58,233 nt of DNA from Candidatus Eremiobacterota bacterium (lineage in GTDB: Bacteria > Vulcanimicrobiota > Vulcanimicrobiia > Vulcanimicrobiales > Vulcanimicrobiaceae), in contig JAFAKB010000035.1 of assembly GCA_019235885.1 (NCBI GenBank), forward strand, positions 1 to 58,233. Reading direction: 5' to 3'. The position numbers and the translations under genes are program-made. Shown here in pieces: positions 10,695-47,390 of the stretch; the first letter of the stretch is position 1; each line of letters begins with the position of its first letter. The notes below the pieces were generated by a model. The model worked only from the letters and a program-made list of their open reading frames with translations. It had not been told where the DNA came from and made no database searches.

Positions 10695-12108
10695 CGCGGC
10701 GCTCGCCGGCGCGCTGCTCGCGCTCGCGCTCGCGTTCACGCTGTTCCGCCCGCCGCCGACGCAAGGTCCGTTCGGGCGCGACTTCGAGGCGTACTACGCC
10801 GCTGGCGCGACGTGGAACGGCGGCGGCGATCCGTGGTCGCGCGAGGTGTGGCGCGTCGAGCGCACGGTCGACGGCGTCGATCCCTCGCGCGAGGAGCTGC
10901 TGCCGTACGTCGGCCCCGCCGCCGCGCTCCCGCTCTACGGTGCGCTCGCGCGGTTTCCGTTCTTGCTCGCGGTGCGCGTCTGGACGGCGCTGCTGGTCCT
11001 CGGGCTGCTCGCGCTCGGGTGGTGTGCGCTCGCGCTCGCCGCGCGCCCTGCGCAGCCGCGCGCGCGCACCGTCGCGACCGTGCTCGCCGCGCTGCTCTTC
11101 GCCGCTGCGAGCGGCGCGGTGACGAGCGCGCTCGCGCTCGGCCAAGTCGCGCTGCTCTCCGCGGCCGGGATCGCCGGCGCGCTGCTGGCGTACGCGCGCC
11201 GCGCGACGCTCGCCGGAGCGTTCGCGACGCTCCTCGCCGGACTGCAGCCGAACCTCGCGCTCGCGCTGCTGGCACGCCTGCGCGACCGTGCCACGTTGCT
11301 CTCGGCGGCGCTTGGCGCGCTCGCGTTCGGCGCGCTGACGCTCTTCGCCGGTGGCGGCGCCGGCGGCTTCGTGACGTACCTGCGCCTGCTCGGCGCGCAC
11401 GGCAACGCCGAGCGCTTCGTCATCATCCAGCACACGCCGGCCGCGATCGCCTACGCGTTCGGCGCGCCTGACAACCTCGCGTCGGGACTGGGCGTCGCGT
11501 GCGCGCTGAGCGCGGTCGTCGCCGTCGTCGCGGTCGCGTTCGCCGCGCGGCTTCCGGCGCGCGACGGAACGCTGCTCGCGCTCGCCGCGCTGCCGTTCGC
11601 GGTCCCGTTCTTCCACGAGCACGACTTCGCGGTCGAATTGATCCCGCTCGTCGTGCTGTCCGCGCTCACGCGCGGAGCCGCGCGCGCGTGGAGCGGTGTC
11701 GCCGCCGCGCTGGTGCTCGTCGACTGGCTCGACCTCGCGCAGCGTCCCGCCGCCGCCGGACAGGTCGTCGCGCTCGGCATCGCGGTGGCGTTCGCGTTCG
11801 TCGCGCTCGGCCCCGGCGCGCGCGCGACGCGCGCCGACCTCGCGCCGTTCGCGGCGCTCGCCGTGCTGGCGTGCTGCGCGCTCCCGCTCGCGCGCGCGCA
11901 CCCCGCGCCCACCTGGCCCGACATGCTGCCCGCGGCGTACCGCGCGCCCGCGAACGCCGACGCAAGCGCCGCATGGTCCGACGAGCAGCGCGCCGCCGGC
12001 CTCGCCGCCCGCAACCCCACCGCCGCCGCCCTACGCGTCCTCCCCCTCGCCGGCTGCATCCTCTTGGGTTTTACTATAATGATCGCCTCACGCGCGGAGC
12101 GCGACTAA
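10684..12108 (+). CDS. Polytopic membrane protein, GT87/DUF2029-like, apparent CTG start
   Basis: 474 residues if started at CTG 10684. The first helix (ALLALALAFTLF) is followed by FGRDFEAYYAAGATWNGGGD, the acidic periplasmic loop typical of GT-C mannosyltransferases of the GT87/DUF2029 group, then many Ala/Leu-rich membrane segments. Such enzymes transfer sugars from polyprenyl phosphates outside the membrane. Between the in-frame stop at 10642 and GTG 10846 there is no ATG, GTG or TTG; starting at 10846 would lose the first helix and the acidic loop, so CTG 10684 is favoured. Ends 4 bp into the convergent transporter gene. Confidence 0.65.
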   Translation: MPRSAALAGALLALALAFTLFRPPPTQGPFGRDFEAYYAAGATWNGGGDPWSREVWRVERTVDGVDPSREELLPYVGPAAALPLYGALARFPFLLAVRVWTALLVLGLLALGWCALALAARPAQPRARTVATVLAALLFAAASGAVTSALALGQVALLSAAGIAGALLAYARRATLAGAFATLLAGLQPNLALALLARLRDRATLLSAALGALAFGALTLFAGGGAGGFVTYLRLLGAHGNAERFVIIQHTPAAIAYAFGAPDNLASGLGVACALSAVVAVVAVAFAARLPARDGTLLALAALPFAVPFFHEHDFAVELIPLVVLSALTRGAARAWSGVAAALVLVDWLDLAQRPAAAGQVVALGIAVAFAFVALGPGARATRADLAPFAALAVLACCALPLARAHPAPTWPDMLPAAYRAPANADASAAWSDEQRAAGLAARNPTAAALRVLPLAGCILLGFTIMIASRAERD

Positions 12109-13721
12109 ATGTCGACGTTCAGGAAATCGTCGAATGGCGTCTGGCTGTTGGGGTGCCAGCCGGTGAGGTCGTCGTTGTACACGTGCACGCTCTCTTGGAT
12201 GTAGAGCACGACGTAGGGGACCTCTTCGTCGATGATCCGCACCGCTTGGGCGGCGATCGCCTTGCGCTTTTCTTCGTCGTAGGTGCTCTTCTGCTGCTGC
12301 AGCAGCGCCTCGAGCCGTTTGTCGCAGAGCCGCGTGACGTTCTGGCCGTTCGGCGGCATCAGCGCGCACGAGTTGAAGGGGTTGAGGTCGCCGTCCGGAG
12401 TCATCTGCCAGCCGAACGCGGTAACGTCGAACTTGCCGTCGTAGACGATCCCGCCGCGCAGCTGAAAGAAGAGCGCCGGGTTGTAGTGCTTGAGGTCGAA
12501 GGCGACCCCGATCTGCTTCCACATGCTGCGGATCAGCTCGATCCGCGAGTCGGCATCGGGGCTCCCCGTCGTGCTCGCCCACTCCAGGTTCAGCCGCACC
12601 CCGTTCTTCGCGCGGATCCCGTCCGGGCCGCGCTTCCAGCCGGCGTCGTCGAGCAGCTTGTTCGCCTTTGCGACGTCGTAGCCGACGAACGGGATCTCCG
12701 AGCTGATCGGGATCGCCGGCGAGATCGGCGACTCTTGGACGATTCCGATTCCGTGGTTGATCTTCCGCACCATCTCGGGGCGGTCGAGCGCGAGCCGCAG
12801 CGCCGCTCGGACCGCGCGCTCGCGCAGCGCCGGGCGCGTCGTGTTGAAGTCGAGGTGTTGGTAGACCGCGCCCGGCTCGCGCACGTGCCCGGTCGTCTTC
12901 AGCGCCATCGCGCGGCCGGCGTACGCGGGCGGAACGTACGCCCACAGGTCGACCTCGCCGGTCTCGAGCTGCGTGAGCAGCGTGTTGCGGTCGGGGATGA
13001 TCTTGTAGATCACCTTCTTGATCTTCGGTTGGCCGCGCCAGTAGTACGGGTTCGCCTCGAGCGTCACGTGGTCGGCGCGCACCCACTCCGTGTAGCGGAA
13101 CGGGCCGATCCCGACCGGCTTGGAGTTGTACGGCGCGTTGTTGATGTTCGGCAGGTTGCCGAGGATGTGCTTGGGCAGGATGCACGGGTTCGCGCCGGCC
13201 GAGCCGAAGAACGTCGGCAAGTAGCCCGAGTACGGTCTCTTCAGGTGAAAGACGACGGTGTGCTTGTTCGGCTCGTCGATCTTCGTGATGAGGTCCCAGC
13301 CGTCGCGCCCCACCTCGTTGTTCGCCGGGTTGTTCACGGCGTTCGTCGAGAAGACGACATCGTCGGCGTCGAACGGCGCGCCGTCCGACCACTTCACGCC
13401 CTCGCGCAGGTGCCAGGTGATCGTGCGCCCGTCCTTGCCGATCCCGCCGTTCGCCTCGGTCGGGACGACCGTCGCCAGCTCCGGCACGGGCCGGTTGTCG
13501 GGGCCGTAGCGGACCAGGTACGCCATCGTGAGCTGCGAGAGGTTGCCGAGCGTGATCGCGGTCGCCAGGTGCGGGTTGAGGCTGTCGAAGTCTTGCGTGT
13601 CGCCGATGCGCAGCGTGTGCGGGATCGTGAACGCGTTCTTGCGCCCCTCCGCCGCACCGCCCGGCGAGCCGGCGCCGGCGAGCAGCAGCACCGCCAGCAC
13701 GAACGCGAAACCTCTCTTCAC
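12105..13721 (-). CDS. ABC transporter family-5 substrate-binding protein, copy 4 of array
   Basis: 538 residues with a signal peptide (MKRGFAFVLAVLLLAGAG) and no lipobox cysteine, unlike two of its siblings. SBP_bac_5 features: RIGDTQDFDSLNPHLATAIT near the N-terminus, then VKWSDGAPFDADDVVFS, the conserved domain-I ligand-binding segment. Very similar along its length to the next gene upstream, ending in the same FDDFLNVDI. These proteins bind peptides, nickel or other solutes in the periplasm. Last of four tandem paralogues; no permease or ATPase gene in the window. Confidence 0.88.
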   Translation of the reverse strand: MKRGFAFVLAVLLLAGAGSPGGAAEGRKNAFTIPHTLRIGDTQDFDSLNPHLATAITLGNLSQLTMAYLVRYGPDNRPVPELATVVPTEANGGIGKDGRTITWHLREGVKWSDGAPFDADDVVFSTNAVNNPANNEVGRDGWDLITKIDEPNKHTVVFHLKRPYSGYLPTFFGSAGANPCILPKHILGNLPNINNAPYNSKPVGIGPFRYTEWVRADHVTLEANPYYWRGQPKIKKVIYKIIPDRNTLLTQLETGEVDLWAYVPPAYAGRAMALKTTGHVREPGAVYQHLDFNTTRPALRERAVRAALRLALDRPEMVRKINHGIGIVQESPISPAIPISSEIPFVGYDVAKANKLLDDAGWKRGPDGIRAKNGVRLNLEWASTTGSPDADSRIELIRSMWKQIGVAFDLKHYNPALFFQLRGGIVYDGKFDVTAFGWQMTPDGDLNPFNSCALMPPNGQNVTRLCDKRLEALLQQQKSTYDEEKRKAIAAQAVRIIDEEVPYVVLYIQESVHVYNDDLTGWHPNSQTPFDDFLNVDI

Positions 13722-13737
13722 GAACCTCTCCTTCGGC

Positions 13738-15369
13738 TCAGATGTCGACGTTCAGGAAGTCGTCGAACGGCGTAGTGTTGTTGGGGTGCCAGTTCTTCAA
13801 GTCGGAGTTGTAGGCGTGGACGTCTTCGCTCACGTAGAGCACCTCGTAGGGCACGTCGGCGATGATCTGCTTCACCGCGTTGGTCACGATCGGCTTGCGG
13901 GCCGCCTCGCTGTACGTCACCTTCTGGAGCTGCAGCCACTTTTCGAGCCGCGGGTCGCACAGCCGGGTGACGTTCTGCCCGTTCGGCGGGAAGTTGGTGC
14001 ACGAGTTCGTCGTGTTGAGATCGCCGTCCGGCGTCAGCTGCCACGCGAACGTGGTGACGTCCCACTTCCCGCCGTACAAGATCCCGCCGGTCACCTGGAA
14101 GAAGAGCGCCGAGTTGTAGTGCTTCGGCGTGACCTTCACGCCGATCTGCTGCCAGTCGCTGCGCAGCTGCTCGATCCGCGCGTCGACGTCCTGATTCCCC
14201 GCGATCGTCGCGACGTCGAGGTCGAGCCGCACGCCGTTCTTCGCCCGAACCCCGTCCGGGCCGCGCACCCAGCCGGCGTCGTCGAGCACCTTGTTGGCCT
14301 GCGCAACGTCGTACGGCACGCTCGGCAGCGGCTCGTAGAGCGGGCTCGCCGGCGTGATCAGGCTCTCTTGGAGAATTCCCACGCCGTGGCTGACCTTCTC
14401 CAAGATCGTCTTGCGGTCGGTCGCGAGCCGCAGCGCGGCGCGCACCGCCTGCTCCTTGAGCGCCGGATGGCTGGTGTTGAAATCGATGTGCGTGTAGAGA
14501 TAGCTCGGGCCGCGGTAGCGGGCGACGTGGGGAAGGGCCGTCACGCGGTCGACGTACGCCGCCGGGATGAAGGTCCACATGTCGAGCTCGCCGGTCTGCA
14601 GCTGCGTGACCAGCGTGTTGCGGTCGGGGATGACCCTGTAGATGACTTTCTTGATTTTCGGGACGCCGCGCCAGTAGTACGGGTTCGCCTCGAGCGTGAT
14701 GTGGTCGCCGCGCACCCAGTCGACGTAGCGGAACGGCCCGATCCCGACCGGCTTGCTGTTGTACGGCGCATGGTTGATGTCGGGCAGGTTCCCGAGGATG
14801 TGCTTCGGGATGACGCACGGGTTCGCGCCGGCCGAGCCGAAGAACGAGGGCAGATACCCCGAGTACTTCTTCTTCAAGTGGTAAACGACGGTGTACTTGT
14901 CGGGCTCGTCGATCTTGGTGATCAGATCCCAGCCGTCACGCCCGACCTCGTTGTTCTTCGGGTTGTTCACCGCGTTGGTCGAGAAGACGACGTCGTCCGC
15001 GTCGAACGGCGCGCCGTCCGACCACTTCACCCCTTTTCGCAGGTGCCAGGTGATCGTGAGCCCGTCCTTGCTGATCCCGCCGTTCTCTTCGGTCGGCACC
15101 TCGGTCGCGAGCTCCGGGGTCGGCTCGTTGTGCGCGTCGTAGCGCACGAGGTACGCCATCGTGAGCTGGTTGAGGTTGCCCAGGATCAGCGAGGTCGACA
15201 GGTGCGGGTTCAGGTTGTCGAAGTCTTGCGTGTCGCCGATCCGCAGCGTGTGCGGGATCGTGTAGGAATTCGTCCCGCCGCCGGACGCCGCCGTCCCGGT
15301 CTGTGTGGCGGTCTTCGTGCACCCGGCAAGCAGCAGTCCGGCCAGCGCGAAAGCAACGGTTCTCTTCAC
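13738..15369 (-). CDS. ABC transporter family-5 substrate-binding lipoprotein, copy 3 of array
   Basis: 543 residues. Lipoprotein signal MKRTVAFALAGLLLAGC with LAGC lipobox. TIPHTLRIGDTQDFDNLNPH and VKWSDGAPFDADDVVFSTNA are nearly identical to the downstream copy, and both end FDDFLNVDI, so these two are the most recent duplicates in the array. The gap to the downstream copy is 16 bp and to the upstream copy 10 bp. Solute unknown. Confidence 0.9.
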   Translation of the reverse strand: MKRTVAFALAGLLLAGCTKTATQTGTAASGGGTNSYTIPHTLRIGDTQDFDNLNPHLSTSLILGNLNQLTMAYLVRYDAHNEPTPELATEVPTEENGGISKDGLTITWHLRKGVKWSDGAPFDADDVVFSTNAVNNPKNNEVGRDGWDLITKIDEPDKYTVVYHLKKKYSGYLPSFFGSAGANPCVIPKHILGNLPDINHAPYNSKPVGIGPFRYVDWVRGDHITLEANPYYWRGVPKIKKVIYRVIPDRNTLVTQLQTGELDMWTFIPAAYVDRVTALPHVARYRGPSYLYTHIDFNTSHPALKEQAVRAALRLATDRKTILEKVSHGVGILQESLITPASPLYEPLPSVPYDVAQANKVLDDAGWVRGPDGVRAKNGVRLDLDVATIAGNQDVDARIEQLRSDWQQIGVKVTPKHYNSALFFQVTGGILYGGKWDVTTFAWQLTPDGDLNTTNSCTNFPPNGQNVTRLCDPRLEKWLQLQKVTYSEAARKPIVTNAVKQIIADVPYEVLYVSEDVHAYNSDLKNWHPNNTTPFDDFLNVDI

Positions 15370-15379
15370 GGTGCGTTCC

Positions 15380-17011
15380 TCAGATGTCCGCCTCGACCAG
15401 ATCGTCGAACGGCGTGGCTTGGTTCGGCCTGAACCCGCGCAGGTCGTCGTTGAAGGCGAAGACGTCCTGGCGCGCGTCGGTCACGATCGTCGGCGCGTCG
15501 CGCACGAGCGCGAGCTGAAACGTCCGCGAGGCGGCGCGCTGCTGCGCCTCGTCGTAGGTGAGGATGAAGCGCCGCAGCGCGGCGTCGGCCTCGCGGTCGC
15601 ACCAGCGCAGCGCGTTCTGCCCGACCGGCGGAAAGCGGTCGCAGCCGTACAGGTTGCGCAGGTCGCCGTTCGGCGGCGGCAGCCACGCGTACAGCGCCAC
15701 GTCGTACTTACCGGCGTACAGGATCCCGCCCGCGAGCGCCGGCGCGAAGTAGAGCGGCGAGGGATAGTGCTTCACGTCGAAGCGCGCGCCGATCGCCGCC
15801 CACGCCGGCCGGATCTGCTCCAGGATCGCGTCGGTGTCGGGCAAGCCGGTCCCGATCGCGAAGGTGAAGTCCAACCGCCGCCCGTTCTTGGCGCGAATCC
15901 CGTCCGCGCCGCGCTGCCACCCCGCCGCGTCGAGCAGCCGGTTCGCCGCCGCGACGTCGAACGGAATGCGCGGCACGTCGACGTGCATCGGGTGCCCCGG
16001 CGGAAACGGCGTCTCTTGCAGGATCCCGACGCCGTGCCGGATCTTCGCCAGGATCGTCGCGCGGTCGGTCGCCAAGCGCAGCGCGCGCCGCACGACCACG
16101 TCGCCGAGCGCGCCGTGCTCGAGCTCGAAGTCGATGTGGTTGAAGAGATACGAGGGCTGGCGCAGTGTCCGCACGCCCGGCAGCGCGTGGACGCGGTCGT
16201 AGTACGCCGCGGGCGCGAACGCCCACATGTCGATCTCGTGCGTGGTGAGCTGCGTGAGCACGGTGTTGCGGTCGGGGATGATCTTGAAGATCACCCGCCG
16301 CAGCTTCGGCTTGCGCCCGAAGTAGAGTGGGTCCGGCACGAGCTCCACCGAGTCCGCGCGCTTCCACGAGGCGTACTTGAACGGCCCGATCCCGACCGGC
16401 AGCGCGTTGTACGGCGCGTCGTTGATCGTCTTGAGGTTGCCGAGCAAGTGCTTGGGGAGGACGCACGGGTTCCCGCCGCCGGAGCTGAAGAAGTTCACGT
16501 AGAACCCGCTGTACGGGCGCTTCAGGCGAAAGACGACGGTGTACGGATCGGGCGTGTCGAGCCGTGCGATCTGGTCGAAGCCCACGTGCGTCCCCTCGTT
16601 GTTCGCCGGGTTCAGGACGACGCCGACCGAGAACTTCACGTCCGCGGCGGTGAACGCAGCGCCGTCGGCCCACTTCGCGTCGCGCCGCAGCTTGTACGTG
16701 ATCGTCTTGCCGTCGGCCGAGATGCCGCCGTTCGCCTTCGACGGCACGGCGAGCGCGAGCTCCGGGACCGGCCGGTTCGCGCGGTCGAACTTGACCAGCC
16801 ACGCCATCGTGTTCGAGGACATGAACGAGAGCGTGACCTGCTGCGCGAGGTGCGGGTTCAGTCCGACGACGTCCTCGCCGGTCGCGTACCGCAGCACGTG
16901 CGCGATCGTGTACGGGTGCCGCGTCGCCTGCGCGGTCGAACCCAGCGGGAGGGCGGCGCACGCGATCACCGCAAGCATCGCAACCGTGCGCCTCAGTAGT
17001 GGTACTCCCAC
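15380..17011 (-). CDS. ABC transporter family-5 substrate-binding protein, copy 2 of array
   Basis: About 540 residues. A signal peptide (LRRTVAMLAVIACAALPLG) is followed by the family-5 N-terminal strand (YTIAHVLRYATGEDVVGLNP) and AKWADGAAFTAADVKFSVGV. Divergent from copies 3 and 4 but ends in the related FDDLVEADI. Start is ambiguous: GTG 17011 is used here; TTG 17020, ATG 16978 and a CTG at 16996, which overlaps the upstream TGA as CTGA with GGGAG 8 bp before it, are all possible. Solute unknown. Confidence 0.85.
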   Translation of the reverse strand: MGVPLLRRTVAMLAVIACAALPLGSTAQATRHPYTIAHVLRYATGEDVVGLNPHLAQQVTLSFMSSNTMAWLVKFDRANRPVPELALAVPSKANGGISADGKTITYKLRRDAKWADGAAFTAADVKFSVGVVLNPANNEGTHVGFDQIARLDTPDPYTVVFRLKRPYSGFYVNFFSSGGGNPCVLPKHLLGNLKTINDAPYNALPVGIGPFKYASWKRADSVELVPDPLYFGRKPKLRRVIFKIIPDRNTVLTQLTTHEIDMWAFAPAAYYDRVHALPGVRTLRQPSYLFNHIDFELEHGALGDVVVRRALRLATDRATILAKIRHGVGILQETPFPPGHPMHVDVPRIPFDVAAANRLLDAAGWQRGADGIRAKNGRRLDFTFAIGTGLPDTDAILEQIRPAWAAIGARFDVKHYPSPLYFAPALAGGILYAGKYDVALYAWLPPPNGDLRNLYGCDRFPPVGQNALRWCDREADAALRRFILTYDEAQQRAASRTFQLALVRDAPTIVTDARQDVFAFNDDLRGFRPNQATPFDDLVEADI

Positions 17012-18651
17012 GTGTCCCAAAACGGTGTCGTGATCACCGGCGTCGGCGTGAAGTCTTGCAAGGCGCCGGTATGCACCTCAAGATCCTTTCGGAACCACAG
17101 GATGATCGACGGATCGTCCTTCGCGAACTCCGCCTGCACCGTCATGTAATCTTGCACGCGCTTCTTCTGGTCGACGGTCTTGTTCGCATCGTCCATCGCC
17201 TTGGTTGCGACGGGGTTGTCCCAGAACAGCGCGTTCTGGCCCTTTGGCGCGAGATAGTGCCCGGAGTAGATCGCGCCCTGATCGATGTCGGCGGCGGCGA
17301 CCCAAGCGAAGAAGGCGACGTCGTATTTGCCGCCCTGCAAGACCCCGTTCGCCGTATTGTCAAAGAACAGCGGGGTCGGATAGTTCTTCACGATCGCGTT
17401 CGCACCGACGGCGCGCCAGTATGTCTGGACTTGCGCCTGAAGCAGTTGGCCCTGCGTCGACTCGGTCTGCGTCGAGATCTGAAACTCCAGCCGCTGCCCG
17501 TTCTTCGTGCGAATCCCGTCGGCGCCCGGCTTCCAGCCGGCTTCGTCGAGCAGCGCCTTCGCCTTGGCCGGGTCGTACGGGTACTTCATGATGGAAGGGT
17601 TCTGGTCGCCCGGAAAGAGCGTCGGGTCGAGGAATGTGTCGCTGAGCTCGCCCAGTCCGTGGCGAATTTTCGCGAGCATCGACTTGCGATCGATCGCATA
17701 TGTCAGCGCGCGGCGGACGCGCACGTCCCCGAAGAGCGGCCGTTTCAGATTGAAGTCGATATGGTCGAACGTGTAGATCACCGGCGTCTCAACGACGTTC
17801 CCAGGCGACGCCTTCACGCGATCGTACGACGACGCGGCGAGATTGTATGCCAAGTCCAGCTCGTGGGTGAGCACCTGCGTCGCGAGTGTGTTTTGATCGG
17901 GGATGATCTTGTAAACGACCTCGCTAATCTTCGGCTTGCCGAGGAAGTAATCGGGGAAGGCCTCGAAGCGAACTTGGCTGCCGCGGTCCCACGAGACGAA
18001 CTTGTACGGGCCGCTTCCGACGGGCGCCGAGTTGTAGGGCGCAGTGTTCAGGCTTCCCTTCGAGTCGTTGAGCTTCGCCAGCAAGTGCTCCGGCATGATC
18101 GGCCCGTTACCGTTAAGGCTCCACAGCTGCTGGAGAAACGGCGCGTACGTTTCCTTCATGTGGACGACGGCGACGTAGGGGTCGCTGCAGTCGACGTCGC
18201 GAATCTTGTTCCACCCGTCGGTCGTGATGACGTTATTTTTGGGATTCATCATCACTTGCCAGGTGAAGCGCAAGTCCGTGCACGTCAGCTCGACGCCGTC
18301 GTGGAACTTGATCCCGTGCCGCAGTTTGTACTTGATCGTCTTGCCGTCGGCACTGACGTCGCCGTTTTCGACGGTCGGGACCTCGGAGACAGCGTCCGGG
18401 ACCGGCTTCGCGTGGTCGTCGTATCGCACCGTGTACGAGAACAAGAACGCGGAGAGGTCGAGCACCGGGCTCGCCGATGCGAACGCCGGGTTCAGATTTT
18501 TCGGATCGGCCGCAGCCGAGAACACCAACCGATCCGGATGCGGACCCTGCGCGGCATTTTCGGGGCCGCCGGACGAGGACTGACCGATCTTGGTGCAGCC
18601 GCAAAGGGCGAACGCGGCGATCGCCCCCGCGGCGAGAAGACGAGGGATCAT
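16993..18651 (-). CDS. ABC transporter family-5 substrate-binding lipoprotein, copy 1 of array
   Basis: 552 residues, lipoprotein signal MIPRLLAAGAIAAFALCGC. Family-5 features are present (LVFSAAADPKNLNPAFASAS, IKFHDGVELTCTDLRFTWQV), but it is the most divergent member and ends in FWDTWEYHY. Base composition looks slightly less GC-rich than its neighbours. The ATG overlaps the TGA of the Lrp-like gene (18651-18648), so the array is translated as part of that operon. Confidence 0.88.
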   Translation of the reverse strand: MIPRLLAAGAIAAFALCGCTKIGQSSSGGPENAAQGPHPDRLVFSAAADPKNLNPAFASASPVLDLSAFLFSYTVRYDDHAKPVPDAVSEVPTVENGDVSADGKTIKYKLRHGIKFHDGVELTCTDLRFTWQVMMNPKNNVITTDGWNKIRDVDCSDPYVAVVHMKETYAPFLQQLWSLNGNGPIMPEHLLAKLNDSKGSLNTAPYNSAPVGSGPYKFVSWDRGSQVRFEAFPDYFLGKPKISEVVYKIIPDQNTLATQVLTHELDLAYNLAASSYDRVKASPGNVVETPVIYTFDHIDFNLKRPLFGDVRVRRALTYAIDRKSMLAKIRHGLGELSDTFLDPTLFPGDQNPSIMKYPYDPAKAKALLDEAGWKPGADGIRTKNGQRLEFQISTQTESTQGQLLQAQVQTYWRAVGANAIVKNYPTPLFFDNTANGVLQGGKYDVAFFAWVAAADIDQGAIYSGHYLAPKGQNALFWDNPVATKAMDDANKTVDQKKRVQDYMTVQAEFAKDDPSIILWFRKDLEVHTGALQDFTPTPVITTPFWDTWEYHY

Positions 18652-19781
18652 GGACGCATTGCCTCCGGATCGAGCTGATGCCTGTCGCAGAACGCGGCGT
18701 ACGCCGCCGGCGCGATCTCGGACGGCTTGATCTCGCTGCGCCCGCCCCAGAACACGTTGGTGTAGTCGAACGCGATCCCCGCTTCACGCAAGTGCGCGTC
18801 GATCGCGGCCTTGTGCGCGAGCAGCGTGTCCTTCTCGGTGCCGTGCGCGACGCCCATGACGTTGACGCCTTGGAACTCGGGCCCGCCCTCGCGCCAGTAG
18901 GCGTGCGTCATGATGTAGTGCCGGCCGACCTCGCGCCCCGCGTCCAGCTCGCGGCCCGGCGGGACCTTCCAGTGGAACAGCGCGTTGTAGCGGGTCACGC
19001 TCTGCCCGCCGGCGTTCGCGTTCGGCTTCACGTGCTCGAGAAAGGTCGAGAAGCGCCCGATGACGCCCTTCTCGTTCAGCTGCCGCCCGATGCGCTCCAG
19101 CTCTGCGAGCGAGACGCCGGCTTCTCGCGCGCGCCCGGCCCACACGTCGCGCACGATCTCCTCGGGCGCCAGCTCGCGCTTGATCGCGGCCAGCACGCGC
19201 CACTCCTGGTCGCTCAGCGCGACCACGTTGGTGTCCTTCACCTCGGCCAGCTCCGGCGCGCGCGCCCCCGGCTCCGTCCCGCGCCGCCGCACGTGACCGA
19301 CGCCCAGCGCGAAGAGCGCCTTGGCCGGCATCAGCCGATACCGCTCGGCGCCGATCGTCGCGGCGAGGAACGCGGCGTGCTTCTCCAGCGAGAAGCCCTG
19401 CGGAACCTTGAGCGTTGTCCACAACCGGTAGTTCGAGCCGGGCGTCGCGCTGTCGGTCGTGCGGATCACGACGTGGCCGGAGAACGGATCGTCGCGGAAG
19501 AGCCACTCGAACGCCGCGTTCAGCTTCTCCGGCGGAACCTGCCAGGCGCACAGCGCGCCGTCGGCGAGGCTCGTCGCCATCAGCGTCTGCCGCACGCGGC
19601 GGATCGTCCCCGCGCGCAGCATTGCGACGATCCGCTCGAGGACCGTCGCGACGGGGACCCCGCTGCGCTCGGCGATCTCACCGAACGGGTCGAGCTGAAA
19701 GCCCGCAAGGCGATCCTCGCTCACCGCGAGGATCGCCGCGTTGGTCGGATCGTCGATCCAGACCGGGACCGTTGAAGTCAT
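18648..19781 (-). CDS. Tandem Lrp/AsnC-like protein, siroheme-decarboxylase (AhbA-AhbB/NirDL)-like
   Basis: 377 residues made of two similar halves, each an HTH-like segment followed by a ferredoxin-like RAM-type domain. First half: ERSGVPVATVLERIVAMLRA, then ALCAWQVPPEKLNAAFEWLF and SNYRLWTTLKVP. Second half: LSDQEWRVLAAIKRELAPEE, then ALFHWKVPPGRELDAGREVG and MTHAYWREGGPEFQGVNVMG followed by VAHG. The pattern W-x-VPP ... H-x-Y ... VHG matches siroheme decarboxylase subunits fused in one chain. It may therefore be enzymatic, or a regulator with that ancestry. Heads the operon of four binding proteins; no other haem gene is nearby. Confidence 0.65.
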   Translation of the reverse strand: MTSTVPVWIDDPTNAAILAVSEDRLAGFQLDPFGEIAERSGVPVATVLERIVAMLRAGTIRRVRQTLMATSLADGALCAWQVPPEKLNAAFEWLFRDDPFSGHVVIRTTDSATPGSNYRLWTTLKVPQGFSLEKHAAFLAATIGAERYRLMPAKALFALGVGHVRRRGTEPGARAPELAEVKDTNVVALSDQEWRVLAAIKRELAPEEIVRDVWAGRAREAGVSLAELERIGRQLNEKGVIGRFSTFLEHVKPNANAGGQSVTRYNALFHWKVPPGRELDAGREVGRHYIMTHAYWREGGPEFQGVNVMGVAHGTEKDTLLAHKAAIDAHLREAGIAFDYTNVFWGGRSEIKPSEIAPAAYAAFCDRHQLDPEAMRP

Positions 19782-19794
19782 CTCGCCCGGGAGT

Positions 19795-21465
19795 TCACCC
19801 GTTGGCGTTCACGCCCTCCGCGAACAGCAGCGCCTGTTCGGCCTGCCGCACGGTGTACACCGCGTTGACCTCGTCGGTGAGCGCTTGCGTGATGCCGACC
19901 TGCGCGTTGAGCAGCAGCGGCAGCGTCGTCACGCCGGCCCGGTACTGGGCCTCCGTCGACTGCAGCACCTGCTGCGCCTTCGTCAGCTCGGCGTTGGTCT
20001 GGTCGAGCGCGGCGTACGCCGAGACCAAGTTCACCAGCGCCTGCCGGACGTTGAGCTGCACGCCCTGCTCGGCGGTCTGCAGGTTCGCTTGCGCGAGGTC
20101 GAGCTGTCCTTGCGCCTGCGCCGTCTGCGCGCGCGTCACGCCGCGGTCGTAGATCGGGATGCTGAGCGCGACGCCGATCGAGCCGTTGTTGCGGAACGTT
20201 CCGCCGCTCGGATCGGTCGAGCTCGTCCCGTAGTTCGCGGTGCCGCTCAGGTTCGGGAAGTTTCCGAGCCGCGCCGCGCGCACGTTCTCGCGCGACGCGG
20301 CGACGTTCTGCTGCTGCGCCGTCAGATCGGGCCGCAGCGCGAGCGCGCGCGTGACGGCTTGCTGATACGTCGGCGTCGGAAACGCCGGGTTGACCGCCAG
20401 GGTCCCCGACGTCGCGCTCAGCGCGGGGACGTCGTCCTTCGGCTGCACCGCGACGTCGGCGTCGAGCCCGAGCGTGTTGGCGAACGTCGCCAGCGCGACG
20501 TTTTGCGCGGCCTGCGCGCGAATCACCGCGACGCGCGCCTGCGCGGTCGGCAGCTGCGCGGTCGCGAGATCGGCGCGCGCGGCGGTCCCGGCCCGAATCT
20601 GCGCGGTGACCAGACTCTCCTGAACCTGATCGAGCTGCACGGTCGTCAGCGCGACTTGCGTCTGGCGCTGCGCGGCGAGCGTGTTGTAGTACGCCGTCGC
20701 GACGTTGAACGCGACCGTCTGCAGCTGCCGCTGGTAGGTCGCGATCGAGGCCGACTGCGACGCGCGCGCGCTGCGGATCTGCGCCGCGACGCGGCCGCCG
20801 TCGAAGATCAATTGCTGCAGCCCGACCGTCAGGCTGTTCGTCGTCACGTTCGGATTGAACGTCGCGGCGCCGCCGCTCGCCGTGCCGGTCGTTCCGGTGT
20901 TGCCCCCGCCGGCTTCGCGGTGCGAGTGCGTCGTCGACGCGTTGCCGGTGACCGCGGGGAAGAGCGCGCTCTGCGCGAGGCTCACCGGCGCGCTCGCGAT
21001 CTCGACGTCGGCGCGCGCGGCGGCGAGCAGCGGCGAGCGCGCGTACGCGATCAGCGTCGCCTGCTGCAGCGTGATCACTTGCGGGACGCCCGGAGCGACG
21101 CGCGTTTGGATCACCGGCGCCGGAGTGCCGTAGGCGGGATACGGGAGCGGCGAGGCCTGATCGGCCGGCGCCAGCGTCGGGATCGCCGAGGCGTTGATCG
21201 CCGCCGATCCGCCCGAAGGACGGGTTCCCGACGGCGCCCCGGGCGCGGTCCCCGGCGGCGCGGTCCCGGTCGCGCCGGGGAGCGCGCTCGGGGTCTGCGG
21301 GCGCGCCGAAGGCGAGGCGAGGGGTGCCGGGGTGACCGCCGGCCGCGCGGTCGGCGCCGGAGTCGCCGGCGTGGTCGGCGTCTGCGCGAGCCCGGGCCGC
21401 GAGGTGAGCGCGAGCGCCGTCAGCGCGACGCCGGCGAGCGCGCGCGAGAGCGAAGCCGAACGCAT
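19795..21465 (-). CDS. TolC-family outer-membrane efflux channel
   Basis: About 556 residues: signal peptide, a Pro/Ala/Thr-rich N-terminal spacer of roughly 100 residues, then two OEP repeats with long amphipathic helices (VAAQIRSARASQSASIATYQ; QQNVAASRENVRAARLGNFP). GSIGVALSIPIYDRGVTRAQ is the usual strand before the second hairpin pair. Forms a trimeric channel across the outer membrane and periplasm. ATG 21465 shares the A of the upstream TGA (GTGATG), so it is coupled to the membrane-fusion protein; GTG 21468 is an alternative start. Confidence 0.9.
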   Translation of the reverse strand: MRSASLSRALAGVALTALALTSRPGLAQTPTTPATPAPTARPAVTPAPLASPSARPQTPSALPGATGTAPPGTAPGAPSGTRPSGGSAAINASAIPTLAPADQASPLPYPAYGTPAPVIQTRVAPGVPQVITLQQATLIAYARSPLLAAARADVEIASAPVSLAQSALFPAVTGNASTTHSHREAGGGNTGTTGTASGGAATFNPNVTTNSLTVGLQQLIFDGGRVAAQIRSARASQSASIATYQRQLQTVAFNVATAYYNTLAAQRQTQVALTTVQLDQVQESLVTAQIRAGTAARADLATAQLPTAQARVAVIRAQAAQNVALATFANTLGLDADVAVQPKDDVPALSATSGTLAVNPAFPTPTYQQAVTRALALRPDLTAQQQNVAASRENVRAARLGNFPNLSGTANYGTSSTDPSGGTFRNNGSIGVALSIPIYDRGVTRAQTAQAQGQLDLAQANLQTAEQGVQLNVRQALVNLVSAYAALDQTNAELTKAQQVLQSTEAQYRAGVTTLPLLLNAQVGITQALTDEVNAVYTVRQAEQALLFAEGVNANG

Positions 21466-23036
21466 CACTGCGCGCCGCCGCGGCGGCCGCCGGGTGCCGG
21501 ATTGCTGATCGCGACGACGCTCTTGTCCTGCAAGGCGTCGGGCCGCGTGGTGATCACCGTCGTCCCGGGCTGAACCTGCGGGCTGCGGATCTCGGTGAGC
21601 GTGTCCGTCTGCAAGCCGACCTGCACCGGAACGACGTTCGCCTGCATCAGCTTGATCGGCGGCGCCCCGCCCGGACCGCCGGCCCCGCCGCCGGCTCCGC
21701 CCGGACCGCCCGCTCCACCGGCTGCGCTTGCGCCGCCCGCACCGCCGCGTTTTCCGCTGCGCGCGCCGGGTCCGCTCGCCGCGCCGCCGCCGGGCGCGCC
21801 GCCGCCTGCGGCGGCACCACCGCCTTGTCCGCCCGCACCCGCCGCGCCGCCTTGAGGCGCCGGCAGGTTCGCGACGGTGAAGACGTTCGACCCGTTCTCG
21901 CTCTGGAACACCGCGGTGCGCGGCACCACGATCGCGTTCGGATGGTACTCCTTGCGCACCGTGACGCTGACCAGCATCCCGCCGCGCAGCCGGTCGCCCG
22001 GGTTCGCGACGCGGACCCGCGCGCGGTACGAGAGCGTTCCCTGCGTCGGCGTCGCGTTGACGTCCATCACCGCGGCGTTGTAGCTGCGGTTGCCCAGACT
22101 CGAGGTGGTGAACGTGACCGGCGTCCCGCTATGCACGTACGGCAGGTCGTCGTCGGGGACGTTGACGTTGACGTACACCGTGTCGATCTGCGAGACGCGC
22201 ACGACCGGCTGATTCGGGCTGGCGAACGCGCCGGGATCGAGCAGCCGCTGCGTGACGACGCCGTCGAACGGCGAGACGATCGCGGTCTGCGCGATCTGCG
22301 TCTGCAGCAAACGCGCTTGCGCTTGCGCGGCGGCGAGCTGACCGCGGTTCACCGCGATCGCCTGCTGCTGGATCGGCACGGCGTTCGTTCCCTGCGACTG
22401 CGCTGCGCGCAGCGCGACCTGCGCCTGCCGCTCGCTCTCGCGCGCGGTGTTCAGCGCCTGCTGCGTCTGCACGTACTGCGCGCGCGCCTGGTCGAACTGC
22501 GTCTGCGCGACGTAGCCTTGCGCGAGCAGCTGGCGGTCGGCGTTGTACGTCGAGAGCGCGCTCTGGTACGCGGCTTGCGCGCTGGCGGTGTTGTTGTGCG
22601 CGGCGGCGACCTGCTGCTGCGCGCTCACGATCGTGTTCGAGGCGTTGGCGGCGGTGACCGGCGCCTGCAGCGTCGAGGAGCCGAGCTGCGCGCTATTCGT
22701 TTGCACGATCGCCTCTTGCTGCGCGAGCGAGGCGCGCAGCGTCGAGTCGTCGAGCTTCGCCAGCAGCTGGCCGCGCGAGACGTGCTGTCCTTCGTTGACG
22801 TAGACCGCCGCGACGTTGCCGGACTGCGGCGAGCTGAGCGTCGACTCTTGAACCGGCGCGATCTGGCCGTCGAGCGTGACGTAGGTGGCGATGTCGCGGC
22901 GCTGGGCTTGCGCGACGTCGACCGCCAGCGGCGGCGGTCCTTTCTGGCCTGCTCCGCCGCCTCCGCCCTTGCCGCATGCGGTCACCGCCATGGCGAGGAC
23001 CGCGGCGGCCAGCAACGCGCGCTGACTCCGTCTCAT
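21465..23036 (-). CDS. RND/HlyD-type periplasmic membrane-fusion lipoprotein
   Basis: 523 residues. ATG 23036 follows AGAAGGAGCACC. Lipoprotein signal MRRSQRALLAAAVLAMAVTA then Cys. Lipoyl half-motifs are STLSSPQSGNVAAVYVNEGQ and AIVSPFDGVVTQRLLDPGAF, flanking a long alpha-hairpin (QFDQARAQYVQTQQALNTAR). The beta-barrel and C-terminal membrane-proximal domain follow, interrupted near residues 390-460 by a Gly/Ala-rich stretch (AGAGGQGGGAAAGGGAPGGG). It should bridge an inner-membrane pump to the downstream TolC protein; no pump gene lies in the window. Confidence 0.9.
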   Translation of the reverse strand: MRRSQRALLAAAVLAMAVTACGKGGGGGAGQKGPPPLAVDVAQAQRRDIATYVTLDGQIAPVQESTLSSPQSGNVAAVYVNEGQHVSRGQLLAKLDDSTLRASLAQQEAIVQTNSAQLGSSTLQAPVTAANASNTIVSAQQQVAAAHNNTASAQAAYQSALSTYNADRQLLAQGYVAQTQFDQARAQYVQTQQALNTARESERQAQVALRAAQSQGTNAVPIQQQAIAVNRGQLAAAQAQARLLQTQIAQTAIVSPFDGVVTQRLLDPGAFASPNQPVVRVSQIDTVYVNVNVPDDDLPYVHSGTPVTFTTSSLGNRSYNAAVMDVNATPTQGTLSYRARVRVANPGDRLRGGMLVSVTVRKEYHPNAIVVPRTAVFQSENGSNVFTVANLPAPQGGAAGAGGQGGGAAAGGGAPGGGAASGPGARSGKRGGAGGASAAGGAGGPGGAGGGAGGPGGAPPIKLMQANVVPVQVGLQTDTLTEIRSPQVQPGTTVITTRPDALQDKSVVAISNPAPGGRRGGAQ

Positions 23037-23839: not shown

Positions 23840-25279
23840 GTGAAACGACTGAGCACCGGGCTTCTGGCCGCGCTTGTCGCGGTCGGAATCGGTACGACGT
23901 CCGTCTCGGCCCAGAACGCTGCAGCGGCGAAAGGCAACACCGGAACCTTCGCGCCCGTGCAGATCGCTCAAGCCACGATGGCGCCGTCGTCGTCGATGCC
24001 GCCCGCTGACTTCGGCACGCCGCCTTCCGGCGAGGTCCCGATCCTCTTCAACGACCGGCACGTCTATACCAAGCCGGACCGCCTGAAGGCGAACCGCGTC
24101 CTCGCTGCGCTGGTGCGCGGCAATACCATTCTCGTTCCGCTGCGCTCGATGTTCGAGCAGATGGGCGCGACGGTTTCGTACGACCCCGCCTCGAAAACGG
24201 TGGACGTCTCAAAGCCGGGCTCCGACGTGAAAGTGACCGTCGGCCGTCCGGAAGTCGTGATCAACGGCGAGAGCCGTCCGCTCGACGTTCCTCCCGAGAT
24301 TTACAAGGGCACGGTCGTCGTGCCGGTTCGCGTGATCTCGGAAGGGATGGGCGCCTACGTTCAGTGGGTCCCGGATCGTCGGATCGTCGTAGTCCGCTAC
24401 CTGCCGCCGCAGCCGCCGCCGCCGCCGCCCCCGCCGACCGCAACGCCGGCGCCCGTGGTGACGCCGCCGCCGCCGCCGCCCACGGCTACCCCGACCCCGG
24501 CTCCGCCGGCTCGGAACCCGTACGAGCACTTCATCGTCGGTGACTACGTCTTCAACCCGAAGGTCTACAACGAGTTCTCGCCGGGCAACTCCGGCAAGGG
24601 CGGCTCGTATGCGGTCCGCGGCGCGGTCGAGTTCCCGGCGTTCGGCCTCCCCTGGATGCTCGAGGGAGACTATCGCTCGTACGCCTACCCGCACGACAGC
24701 ACGATCACTACAGCGATGTACAACACCTCGTTCGACGGCAACCCGTGCCCGCACAACGGCCTGCCCGTTGCGCTGACCCCGGCCGCCGGCAACCAGGGCT
24801 GCGTCACCGTGATCGGCGCGTACGGCCAGACGGCCGTCCCCTCGTTCACCGCGCGTGACTCCGACTTCGACGGGCGCCTCGGCCTCAAGATCGCCGAACC
24901 GCGCATCTACATCGGCGTCGGCTACCTCCACCGTGAGGAGAACTACGGCTATCCGAGGCAGAACGGCTTCGGCTTCGGCGCCGAGAAGCTCCCCGACCTG
25001 GAGAACAGCCTCTCGGTCTACGGCAGCGTGTGGTACTACCCGAGCATCTCGGGCAACTTCACGTACCCGAACCTCGGTGCGCCGCCTGCACTTGCCGTCA
25101 CGACCGACAAGTTCCAGCAGCGCTTCCTGAAGTACCAGATCGGCGGAACGCTCAACCTGGGTAGCTCCGGGCTGTTCCTCGACGCCGGTTTCCTCGGCGA
25201 CACGATCCGCGGCAAGAACCTCTCGCCGTCCGACGCGTCGCACGCGGGTGGCTACATCGGCCTCGGTATCAAGTTCTAA
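23840..25279 (+). CDS. Stalk (copper amine oxidase N-terminal-like) domain fused to outer-membrane beta-barrel
   Basis: 479 residues from GTG 23840 (AGGGAG upstream). Order: signal peptide (MKRLSTGLLAALVAVGIGTT), an N-terminal spacer, a stalk domain of the copper-amine-oxidase N-terminal type at about 70-185 (RGNTILVPLRSMFEQMGATV; TVVVPVRVISEGMGAYVQWV), a proline/threonine linker with runs of eight and six prolines (about 190-225), then a predicted beta-barrel rich in aromatic strands ending in GYIGLGIKF. The terminal Phe is the usual BAM signal. It may anchor a periplasmic or surface domain to the outer membrane. A strong terminator follows. Confidence 0.78.
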   Translation: MKRLSTGLLAALVAVGIGTTSVSAQNAAAAKGNTGTFAPVQIAQATMAPSSSMPPADFGTPPSGEVPILFNDRHVYTKPDRLKANRVLAALVRGNTILVPLRSMFEQMGATVSYDPASKTVDVSKPGSDVKVTVGRPEVVINGESRPLDVPPEIYKGTVVVPVRVISEGMGAYVQWVPDRRIVVVRYLPPQPPPPPPPPTATPAPVVTPPPPPPTATPTPAPPARNPYEHFIVGDYVFNPKVYNEFSPGNSGKGGSYAVRGAVEFPAFGLPWMLEGDYRSYAYPHDSTITTAMYNTSFDGNPCPHNGLPVALTPAAGNQGCVTVIGAYGQTAVPSFTARDSDFDGRLGLKIAEPRIYIGVGYLHREENYGYPRQNGFGFGAEKLPDLENSLSVYGSVWYYPSISGNFTYPNLGAPPALAVTTDKFQQRFLKYQIGGTLNLGSSGLFLDAGFLGDTIRGKNLSPSDASHAGGYIGLGIKF

Positions 25280-43961: not shown

Positions 43962-44741
43962 ATGTCTGAGGCTGGAAATCCCGTGCGCGGGCTCGTCGCG
44001 CGCGACCTGCGGGTCGCCGTCGAGAACAAAGAGATTCTGAAGGGCATCGACCTGAGGGTCGAGCCGGGGCGCGTCCACGCGCTGATGGGCCCGAACGGGA
44101 GCGGCAAGTCGACCCTCGCCTTCACCCTCGCCGGCCACCCCGGCTACCAGGTGCTCGGCGGCTCGGCCTCGCTCGACGGCGAGGAGCTCCTCGAGCTCTC
44201 GCCCGACAAGCGCGCGAAAGCCGGCCTCTTTCTTTCGTTCCAGTACCCCGCGGCGATCCCGGGCGTCTCGGTGGCGAACTTCCTGCGCACCGCGCGCATG
44301 GCGGTGCGGCCGGCCGACCTGAACCCGGCGAAATTCCGCAAGCTCATCTTCGAGAAGCTGGACACGCTCGACATGGACCCGGCGTTCCTGGGCCGCTACG
44401 TCAACGACGGCTTCTCGGGCGGCGAGAAGAAGCGGCTCGAAATGCTGCAGCTCGCGATCCTCGCGCCGAAGTACGCCATCCTCGACGAAACCGACTCAGG
44501 GCTCGACATCGACGCGCTGCAGGCCGTCGGAAACAGCATCGGCGCGCTGCGCGGGAGCGAGGAAGGCAAGGAGATCGGTTTCCTCGTCATCACGCACTAT
44601 CCGCGCATCCTGCGCCACGTTCCGGCCGACGTCGTGCACGTCATGATCGACGGCCGCATCGTCAAGACGGGCGGTCCCGAGCTCGCGCACCAGATCGAAG
44701 CCGAAGGGTACGACGCGCTGCGAGAAGAGGCCAGTGTCTAG
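43962..44741 (+). CDS. sufC: SufC ATPase of the SUF iron-sulfur assembly machinery
   Basis: 259 residues, standard length. Walker A GPNGSGKST, signature FSGGEKKRLEMLQLAILAPK, Walker B YAILDETDSGLDIDALQAVG. SufC drives conformational changes of the SufB-SufD scaffold. First gene of sufC-sufD-sufS-sufU; its end overlaps sufD by 8 bp. Preceded by the promoter at 43925-43953 and divergent from sufR. Confidence 0.96.
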   Translation: MSEAGNPVRGLVARDLRVAVENKEILKGIDLRVEPGRVHALMGPNGSGKSTLAFTLAGHPGYQVLGGSASLDGEELLELSPDKRAKAGLFLSFQYPAAIPGVSVANFLRTARMAVRPADLNPAKFRKLIFEKLDTLDMDPAFLGRYVNDGFSGGEKKRLEMLQLAILAPKYAILDETDSGLDIDALQAVGNSIGALRGSEEGKEIGFLVITHYPRILRHVPADVVHVMIDGRIVKTGGPELAHQIEAEGYDALREEASV

Positions 44742-46107
44742 TCTCATCAACGCCGACGAAGCGGTCGCGTTCGAGCCGTCCGCAGCCGGCCTGGATGCCG
44801 TGCGCCGAATCATCGGCAACGACGATCCCTACCGGGCCGACCGCGAGACCGCGCTGCACCGCTATCAAACGCTCGCGCTGCCGGGCCCGAAACCCGGCCG
44901 CGGCTGGCGCCACGACTACGACAGGCTGGCCTTTCAGGGCTTGCGCTGGACGACCGGTGCGACAACGGTTCCGACCTCGCCGTTCGACGCGATCGGGGCG
45001 CTGATGGGATCCGATGACGCCGGCGTGCCGGCGCTCGCGACGGAGAACACCGCAGGCGTGGTGCATATCGGCGCTCGCGCGGTTCGGCCGGCCGTTGCGC
45101 GCGTGCTGCCGAACGGAGTCGTCGTCGCGCCGTACGCGGAGGCACGAGCTGGCGATCCGGAGCCTGAATACGAGAAATTTCTGCGGCCCTCGATCCAAGC
45201 GGCGATTGCGACCGATCGCTTTGCGGCGCTCGCCGAAGCCTTTGTCAACTGCGGTGCTTTCGTCTACGTCCCGCCGGGACTCAGCCTCGACAAGCCGATC
45301 CAACTCGTGTTCGCGACGCCCGAAGGAAACGATGATGCGGTCTTTCCGCGCATCGTGGTCATCCTGGGCCGGGGCGCACGAGCGACCGTCATCGAGCGGC
45401 ACGTCGGGTCGGCGGATGCATTCATCTGCGGGACCGTGTGGGCGACCGTCGAGCAAGACGCCCAGCTGGAGTATGTCGGCGCGCAGCAAGCGGGCGAATC
45501 GGCGCGCGTGTTCATGTACCGCCATGCCGCATGCATCGGGGGCACGGCGCGCTTCCACGTGGCGGAGCTCGGCGGGACGCTGGTGCGCTCGGTCATCGAG
45601 CTCGACCTCGAAACGCAAGGGGCGCGCGGTGAAACCTCGGCGCTCTTCTTCAACACCGGTTTTCAGCACGTCGACCTCAGCACGACGACGAACCACGTCG
45701 CAGGCAACACGACCGCCGACACGGTGGTCCGGACCGCGGCGACCGATCGCGGCCAGGGACGATTCCTCGGCAACATCGCGATCCGCGCCGGGGCGCACGG
45801 CGCGGACGCTTCGCTGCGCGACGATGCGCTCTTGCTCAGCAAGCGCGCCCACATCGACAGCGTCCCGGCGCTCGAGATCGCCGCGAACGACGTGAAGGCG
45901 TTTCACGGCGCGACCGTCGGCTCGCTCGACGCAGACGCGCTGTTCTATGCGCAGAGCCGCGGGATCGCGCGCGCCGACGCCGTCCGCATGGTGGCGCTGG
46001 CGTTCTTCGAACCGGCGATCACGCGCTTCCCGGGTGAGACGCTGCGTGACGAAGTGCGCACCGCGCTCGACCACAAGATCGACGCCGCGACGGAGATCGA
46101 CGGATGA
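44734..46107 (+). CDS. sufD: SufD-type scaffold protein
   Basis: 457 residues. Typical SufB/SufD beta-helix core: NCGAFVYVPPGLSLDKPIQL, TVIERHVGSADAFICGTVWA, FFNTGFQHVDLSTTTNHVAG. The C-terminus AFHGATVGSLDADALFYAQS followed by RGI is SufD-like rather than SufB-like. GTG 44734 lies 8 bp inside sufC. A SufB gene, which normally forms the active scaffold with SufD and SufC, is not in the window. Confidence 0.88.
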   Translation: MSSLINADEAVAFEPSAAGLDAVRRIIGNDDPYRADRETALHRYQTLALPGPKPGRGWRHDYDRLAFQGLRWTTGATTVPTSPFDAIGALMGSDDAGVPALATENTAGVVHIGARAVRPAVARVLPNGVVVAPYAEARAGDPEPEYEKFLRPSIQAAIATDRFAALAEAFVNCGAFVYVPPGLSLDKPIQLVFATPEGNDDAVFPRIVVILGRGARATVIERHVGSADAFICGTVWATVEQDAQLEYVGAQQAGESARVFMYRHAACIGGTARFHVAELGGTLVRSVIELDLETQGARGETSALFFNTGFQHVDLSTTTNHVAGNTTADTVVRTAATDRGQGRFLGNIAIRAGAHGADASLRDDALLLSKRAHIDSVPALEIAANDVKAFHGATVGSLDADALFYAQSRGIARADAVRMVALAFFEPAITRFPGETLRDEVRTALDHKIDAATEIDG

Positions 46108-47354: not shown

Positions 47355-47375
47355 TGGTGATGGACCGAGCGCAGA
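47352..47375 (+). repeat. 24-bp intergenic repeat, copy 1 (sufS-sufU gap)
   Basis: Begins exactly at the sufS stop codon: TAATGGTGATGGACCGAG and six more bases. An identical copy, also beginning at a TAA stop codon, is at 50013-50036 on the minus strand after the E2 gene. The remaining 15 bases to sufU (ending AGCGCCTTTAAA before ATGGA) resemble the end of the longer repeat upstream of the SDR gene. Confidence 0.85.
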
Positions 47376-47390
47376 ACAAGCGCCTTTAAA

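Follow-up and report, generated by a model that had tools for sequence, protein, structure and literature searches.

Why should four family-5 substrate-binding proteins (SBPs) lie head to tail behind a gene resembling siroheme decarboxylases, with no permease beside them? The genes in question lie on the minus strand of contig 35 (JAFAKB010000035.1) in the 4.5-Mb draft genome of a soil bacterium, Candidatus Eremiobacterota bacterium (assembly GCA_019235885.1, phylum Vulcanimicrobiota). The window analyzed here comprises 58,233 nucleotides of that contig. The gene in front of the array (18648 to 19781) encodes a 377-residue, fused two-domain protein that resembles the siroheme decarboxylase NirDL in profile, motif, and fold matches and that we call AHB. 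As far as sequence comparison can tell, in two bacterial phyla AHB most likely indicates a hybrid heme route, from siroheme to HemQ, with one step lacking an assigned enzyme. The fuller reading, which we consider reasonably probable, is that the operon has been kept vertically, that AHB opens a route from siroheme through coproheme to HemQ, and that the SBPs are orphan receptors working with a dispersed importer.

AHB resembles fused siroheme decarboxylases

Profile searches found two AsnC_trans_reg2 stretches in AHB (E value, 2e-15), together with a NirDL-like helix-turn-helix below its cutoff (23.6 of 27 bits). The best fold match of the AHB structural model was NirDL (VIA Z score of 14.9 over 297 residues, the next entry scoring 8.7; Foldseek, 1.4e-15). 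The model has a mean pLDDT of 74 and a root mean square deviation of 9.9 from NirDL, meaning that the halves fit while their packing differs from that in the crystal. It shows an Lrp-like helix-turn-helix and a ferredoxin-like domain in two halves, and siroheme decarboxylases rank ahead of AsnC-type regulators. The original prediction had described a tandem Lrp-like protein coupled to the array. An ATGA overlap with the first SBP gene and the two AsnC_trans_reg2 stretches fit this description, but in fold NirDL outscores the regulators.

A pattern scan of species genomes gave 34 AHB loci, from Vulcanimicrobiota, 14 of Verrucomicrobiota type, and one labeled Armatimonadota (L086). We aligned the window protein with AHB from 23 of the 34 (24 rows). 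The C-half motif H293-A/G-Y295-W-R297 (minus strand, 18891 to 18905) aligns with HCYQR of NirDL, and its His, Tyr, and Arg are present in 24/24 rows, giving the AhbB-like half the HXYXR signature throughout. The N-half motif H103-x-V-x-R107 (minus strand, 19461 to 19475), likewise found in 24/24 rows, aligns with HNYER of NirDL (PDB 4ch7). H293, Y295, and R297 fall on the AhbB catalytic triad, and H103 and R107 fall on the AhbA iron ligand and propionate-binding Arg; the roles of these residues in AhbA/AhbB, along with the R102A result, are given in the relevant part of PMC4145669.

AHB thus shares with NirDL and AhbA-AhbB (PDB 4ch7, 4czc, 4czd, and 4un1) a fused, two-half Lrp-like fold, the H/Y/R triad in one half and H/R in the other at aligned positions, and co-occurrence with siroheme synthesis. 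It differs in that identity to NirDL is about 20% in the structural alignment, the N-half Tyr is replaced by Val and followed by a 7-residue insertion, the C terminus carries an invariant YTNVFWGGRSEIKPSEI stretch, and AhbC/AhbD usually do not accompany it. A further point of difference is that the aligned AHB homologs are 64 to 87% identical to the window protein.

AHB tends to exchange with the classical heme genes

A search of 148 genomes found AHB in 81, two of them weakly. We tabulated co-occurrence in 95 of the 148 (G000 to G094), which belong to the window's own family or to the sister family (f1 and f2) and divide into 79 genomes with AHB and 16 without. HemE (PF01208) was present in 3/79 genomes with AHB versus 13/16 without, and HemH (PF00762) in 3/79 versus 12/16. 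HemQ (PF06778) showed the opposite pattern (72/79 versus 9/16), as did a strong precorrin-2 dehydrogenase domain (PF13241, E < 1e-15; 74/79 versus 5/16). AHB is a marker of the heme pathway.

The same exchange is visible inside single genera. Seven genera include genomes with and without AHB, and in six of them (g1, g12, g18, g19, g37, and g39) HemE is present in the members lacking AHB; the genome without AHB in the remaining genus, g24, is 61% complete and has no HemE. G062 is the only AHB-positive member of these mixed genera that also has HemE. Four genomes without AHB (G009, G021, G046, and G054) carry a hemE-hemF-hemH-hemY cassette and lack HemQ, with HemF and HemY typed by profile in G009 and by similarity in the other three; other genomes without AHB retain HemQ alongside HemE and HemH. 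AHB, siroheme synthase, and HemQ together tend to exchange with the classical cassette.

The window's genome encodes the flanking steps. One run of genes on contig C89 comprises SirC-HemC with a HemD-like tail, HemB, a MobA-like protein, HemL, HemA, and CobA-HemD (HemB, HemL, and HemA being named from sequence rather than by profile scan), so that the SirC-HemC fusion and CobA-HemD provide for siroheme synthesis. Nearly all of the 20 relatives fetched have the genes in this order, some with a Rex-like gene; cytochrome b and Rieske genes adjoin the cluster in most of them, and ResB/CcsB does so in many. These cells need heme. HemQ/ChdC is encoded at C71:139147-139962 (PRK12276, H2O2-dependent heme synthase; 258.5 bits against a cutoff of 253). 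In the HemQ regions of relatives (L192 to L211), a PanE-like gene family lies mostly directly beside HemQ, usually after ATP-cone-like and dUTPase-like genes. We considered this family as a candidate for the missing enzyme and rejected it as not specific, since it occurs in 20/20 fetched HemQ regions, including that of the HemE-positive genome G014.

A proposed route from siroheme to heme

AHB most likely starts a siroheme-to-coproheme-to-HemQ heme route. HemA, HemL, HemB, HemC, and HemD would make uroporphyrinogen III, which CobA and SirC would convert to siroheme. AHB, acting as a fused AhbA/AhbB-type decarboxylase that takes acetate carboxylates off siroheme, would yield 12,18-didecarboxysiroheme. 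Deacetylation, by an AhbC-like radical S-adenosylmethionine (SAM) enzyme in some genomes, would give coproheme, and HemQ would convert coproheme to heme b, so that HemE and HemH would both be bypassed. The presence pattern of the heme genes and the fold and motif matches are direct observations; AHB's reaction, the order of the steps, and the running of the pathway in the cell are what we infer.

In the cited literature, archaea and sulfate reducers are the organisms that use the siroheme-dependent heme route (PMC11306076), and Haloferax is described as combining it with a ChdC enzyme (PMC5746218). Haloferax volcanii, with Ahb enzymes and the ChdC-domain protein PitA, is the closest parallel: as described there, the upper part of the route is siroheme based without HemE/HemH-type genes, and a ChdC/HemQ enzyme serves aerobic growth (PMC5746218). 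Unlike the present case, it retains ahbC, ahbD, and separate nirDL/nirGH genes, whereas here bacteria have a single fused AHB, a plain HemQ, and often no AhbC/AhbD. In the open-license PMC literature, we found no published account of AHB, of the loss of HemE, or of a route through siroheme in Eremiobacterota or Verrucomicrobiota. If the route is real, a siroheme version would replace HemE-HemH in two bacterial phyla and end in HemQ, often without AhbC; it would be swapped with the classical cassette inside single genera, and comparative genomics would define a missing enzyme.

That enzyme concerns the removal of the ring A/B acetates, which is the task of AhbC in the known organisms covered by PMC7242693 and PMC11306076. 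Among the 69 genomes with AHB and HemQ but neither HemE nor HemH, 44 have no match to TIGR04545 (AhbC/AhbD-like radical SAM) at an E value of 1e-50 or below; 19 of these are at least 95% complete, including the single-contig genome G006, which has no AhbC/AhbD-like match at 1e-20 either. Some relatives have an AhbC-like gene paired with a TIGR04053-like one, with scores of 466 to 485 of 650 bits against the AhbC model, so that the names are not secure. The two AhbC/AhbD-like matches in the window's genome are maturases of the type acting on ribosomally synthesized and posttranslationally modified peptides. This pair on C91 was rejected as AhbC/AhbD because TIGR03913-type peptide maturases score best. 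The locus (G000:C91:42106-45597, L170) holds the two TIGR03913-type radical SAM/SPASM maturases with small open reading frames (ORFs) of 95 and 99 amino acids next to them and is likely a peptide modification locus. The hem cluster at G091:C46:138058-142674 (L176) has a TIGR04053-family radical SAM gene placed between a hemY-like gene and hemH. Other genomes lack such a gene there and carry hemF, making the L176 gene a candidate for a coproporphyrin-acting enzyme.

Several points weigh against the proposed route. The TIGR04545 match does not track AHB (31/79 genomes with AHB versus 8/16 without), and the route has a gap at deacetylation in most genomes, the window's included. AHB scores far below the NCBIfam equivalog cutoffs for AhbB (66.5 of 125 bits) and AhbA (44.9 of 140 bits), and its AhbA-like half lacks the HXYXR motif, Val standing at the Tyr position with His and Arg kept in 24/24 rows. 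AHB and HemE occur together in three genomes (G016, G050, and G062). HemQ was not found in 7/79 AHB-positive genomes, two of them at least 95% complete (G065 and G074). The cutoffs of 1e-50 and 1e-15 were picked after the scores had been seen, and Fisher P values from the co-occurrence table overstate independence because the genomes are related and some are incomplete.

A further difficulty comes from pigment synthesis. Bacteriochlorophyll a synthesis needs protoporphyrin IX. G006 belongs to the window's genus, has no HemE or HemH match, and is probably Vulcanimicrobium alpinus, which in culture makes bacteriochlorophyll a (PMC9758169). If so, the siroheme route would not yield the protoporphyrin IX for this pigment, which counts against it, and the bacteriochlorophyll would also have to arise without HemE, a puzzle; by the same token, the siroheme-HemQ route would be open to testing in a cultured aerobe. 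HemE, HemF, HemH, HemY, and AhbC/D-like queries had no match in 459,703 of the 3,508,363 bases of G006 (13%), too little to conclude from. The same limit applies to the absence of a NifH-like BchL/BchX motif from all fetched loci.

Three other accounts of AHB can be set against this evidence. The idea that AHB regulates the SBP genes as an Lrp/AsnC-type protein could draw on the two helix-turn-helix-like stretches in the model, on AsnC-family structures forming the second tier of fold matches, and on the ATGA coupling to an SBP. We regard it as highly improbable: the NirDL Z score of 14.9 compares with 8.5 and below for regulators, the catalytic residues are invariant across two phyla, AHB presence follows the heme genes, and AHB in Verrucomicrobiota has no SBP to regulate. 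AHB might instead replace HemE directly, converting uroporphyrinogen III to coproporphyrinogen III, with an unrecognized chelatase adding iron before HemQ. It is HemE that goes missing in genomes with AHB, NirDL is bound to an iron-uroporphyrin III analog in 4czc (according to the entry title), and such a swap would supply protoporphyrin IX for bacteriochlorophyll if G006 is V. alpinus. It is nevertheless quite unlikely, as HemH is lost together with HemE and siroheme synthase is gained with AHB, and a pure swap explains neither; these two changes ruled out HemE replacement alone as our principal interpretation. The lack of HemF/HemY in the 460 kb (13%) of G006 read is too little to decide the matter. 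The third account is a bold form of the siroheme route. Vulcanimicrobiota and Verrucomicrobiota would make heme from siroheme without AhbC/AhbD. Either AHB itself would also remove the acetates of rings A and B, perhaps using oxygen, or an aerobic deacetylase yet to be discovered would take over its product, with HemQ finishing. This proposal, which points to the high conservation of AHB and its invariant C-terminal extension, we hold tentatively, at somewhat below an even chance.

AHB without the SBP array

In the AHB alignment, the 11 Verrucomicrobiota rows form one clade. The 14 Verrucomicrobiota genomes with AHB all have HemQ (14/14), and two have HemE (2/14; G151 and G154); with L086 and L092 added, the counts are 16/16 and 2/16. 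At the 15 loci that fall outside the SBP-bearing lineage (14 Verrucomicrobiota loci and L086), no outer membrane efflux protein (OEP), membrane fusion protein (MFP), or SBP gene was found near AHB; contig ends truncate three of these loci (L106, L107, and L111). Within Vulcanimicrobiota, AHB lacks the array at 1/37 loci (L117). Since Verrucomicrobiota AHB occurs without the array, its conserved core role is independent of the SBPs. Some Verrucomicrobiota AHB loci adjoin an msrP gene and mutS; the msrP catalytic-subunit gene lies directly upstream of AHB at L105:9035-9973, where it was typed, and also at L096, L098, and L109.

The operon and its four SBPs

The original prediction had set the cluster at 12105 to 19781. 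The genes are real, as the ORFs and profile matches confirm, but the run begins further upstream. In minus-strand order, it consists of an MFP of the RND_mfp/HlyD type (21465 to about 22991; HlyD_D23, 3.5e-22; TIGR01730, 171.9 bits against a cutoff of 94.9), whose start is uncertain because the ORF stays open to 23501; a TolC-like OEP (19795 to 21468; OEP, 6.8e-58), which overlaps the MFP stop; AHB; and the four SBPs. Gene order and overlaps can be read directly. Gaps are at most 16 bp or give way to short overlaps, and the AHB stop shares ATGA (18648 to 18651) with the start of the first SBP gene, suggesting translational coupling. On this arrangement, the sequence argues for coexpression of AHB and the SBPs. 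A promoter and terminator scan gave nothing above chance.

The SBPs number 538 to 552 residues, as predicted: copy 1 adjoins AHB (16993 to 18651; 552 residues), followed by copy 2 (15380 to 17020; 546 residues; start at TTG 17020 or ATG 16978), copy 3 (13738 to 15369; 543 residues), and copy 4 (12105 to 13721; 538 residues). Three carry cysteine-bearing, lipoprotein-compatible signal sequences (copy 1; copy 2, with a possible lipobox; copy 3, with the lipobox LAGC), and copy 4 has no lipobox. All four match SBP_bac_5 (PF00496; E values of 2e-72 to 1e-86; 245 to 292 bits against a cutoff of 32.4) and fall far below the NCBIfam DppA/OppA/NikA equivalog cutoffs (e.g., NikA, 170 of 393). Identity to copy 4 is 71% for copy 3, 49% for copy 2, and 34% for copy 1, in line with the predicted closeness of copies 3 and 4 and divergence of copies 1 and 2.

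We built a tree of 78 of 84 rows, after leaving out SBPs shorter than 420 residues and 6 identical rows. In it, 65 array members group together in a single clade (100/96), and the genome's 13 other SBP5 proteins fall outside it; position 1 of most arrays, including copy 1, forms a deep ortholog clade, and copies 3 and 4 stem from a recent duplication. The tree does not address the ligand. Relatives have about one to four copies, and L117 has none. On this evidence, the array is an ordinary expansion specific to its lineage.

We surveyed 37 Vulcanimicrobiota loci (two of them, L080 and L082, from a single genome, and several being contig-end fragments), leaving out L112 and L114 as duplicate fetches. 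In 37/37, OEP lies upstream of AHB at a distance of 9 to 105 bp, and in 36/37 an SBP follows downstream after 0 to 186 bp, L117 being the exception. We read MFP-OEP-AHB-SBP(1-4) as an operon that Vulcanimicrobiota (Eremiobacterota) have kept by vertical descent. No Dpp permease cluster accompanies the array at any Vulcanimicrobiota locus displayed; one beside it would have marked the array as an ordinary peptide transporter cluster.

The window cluster likewise has no permease or ATPase gene, as the original prediction had noted. The window's genome has 19 PF00496 matches: the 4 in the window, 13 other full-length genes, and 2 contig-end fragments, one of which, on C47, adjoins a DppBC pair. 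With up to three neighbors on each side considered, no DppB-, DppC-, or ABC-like gene lies beside any of the 13. The six best of 23 BPD_transp_1 matches were typed as a lone DppB-like gene (C93), a lone DppC-like gene (C23), and two DppBC pairs (C47), and the only oligo_HPY ATPases form one OppD/OppF (DppD-DppF)-like pair (C79). All these typed Dpp/Opp-type permease and ATPase genes lie away from the window. Because DppB, DppC, and DppDF genes are scattered and 13/13 other full-length SBP5 genes stand without a neighboring permease, a shared transporter encoded elsewhere, one of the options originally offered, is the likeliest. The SBPs are most likely orphan periplasmic receptors that dock to a Dpp/Opp-type ATP-binding cassette importer encoded in dispersed genes, and the lineage would then be one in which many orphan receptors go with an importer of dispersed genes. 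Pseudomonas aeruginosa, in which five DppA proteins use one DppBCDF (PMC4206461), offers a precedent for sharing. As that paper describes it, DppA1 to DppA5 also provide several family-5 receptors per importer, with one receptor apart from the permease operon, but most receptor genes there adjoin dppBCDF, whereas here DppB, DppC, and DppDF are dispersed and the array lies behind AHB.

What the receptors bind is a separate matter, and two further accounts, both compatible with the siroheme reading of AHB, bear on it. One, to which we give nearly an even chance, is that they are an ordinary peptide uptake set sharing the operon with AHB merely by synteny. SBP5 is a family of peptide and nickel binders, the genome's 13 other full-length members also stand alone, and copy number varies down to zero; against this, the ATGA coupling and the short gaps favor coexpression with AHB. 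The other, which we find doubtful, is that the whole operon handles envelope tetrapyrroles, with MFP-TolC expelling excess intermediates, the SBPs binding and returning heme or porphyrin, and AHB making an intermediate. It accords with the conserved order around AHB, with the coupling, with heme-binding protein A chains among the PDB relatives of the SBPs, and with the export of protoporphyrin by MacAB-TolC in Escherichia coli (PMC4263509). That system also pairs an MFP with a TolC-type channel, but the window run has no inner membrane pump gene. Neighbors without evident tetrapyrrole relevance are widely conserved as well, so order alone shows little; Verrucomicrobiota AHB occurs without MFP, OEP, or SBP; and the closest PDB relatives of the SBPs bind peptide and nickel rather than heme. 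The suggested tetrapyrrole link is thus strongly supported for AHB and not shown for the SBPs, which might themselves take part in handling tetrapyrroles.

Two neighboring features were also noted. A protein with a copper amine oxidase N-terminal domain (23840 to 25279) is kept beside the operon in most relatives, and a run of SUF-type iron-sulfur assembly genes, named from the starts of their sequences, occupies 43983 to 47786 on the plus strand.

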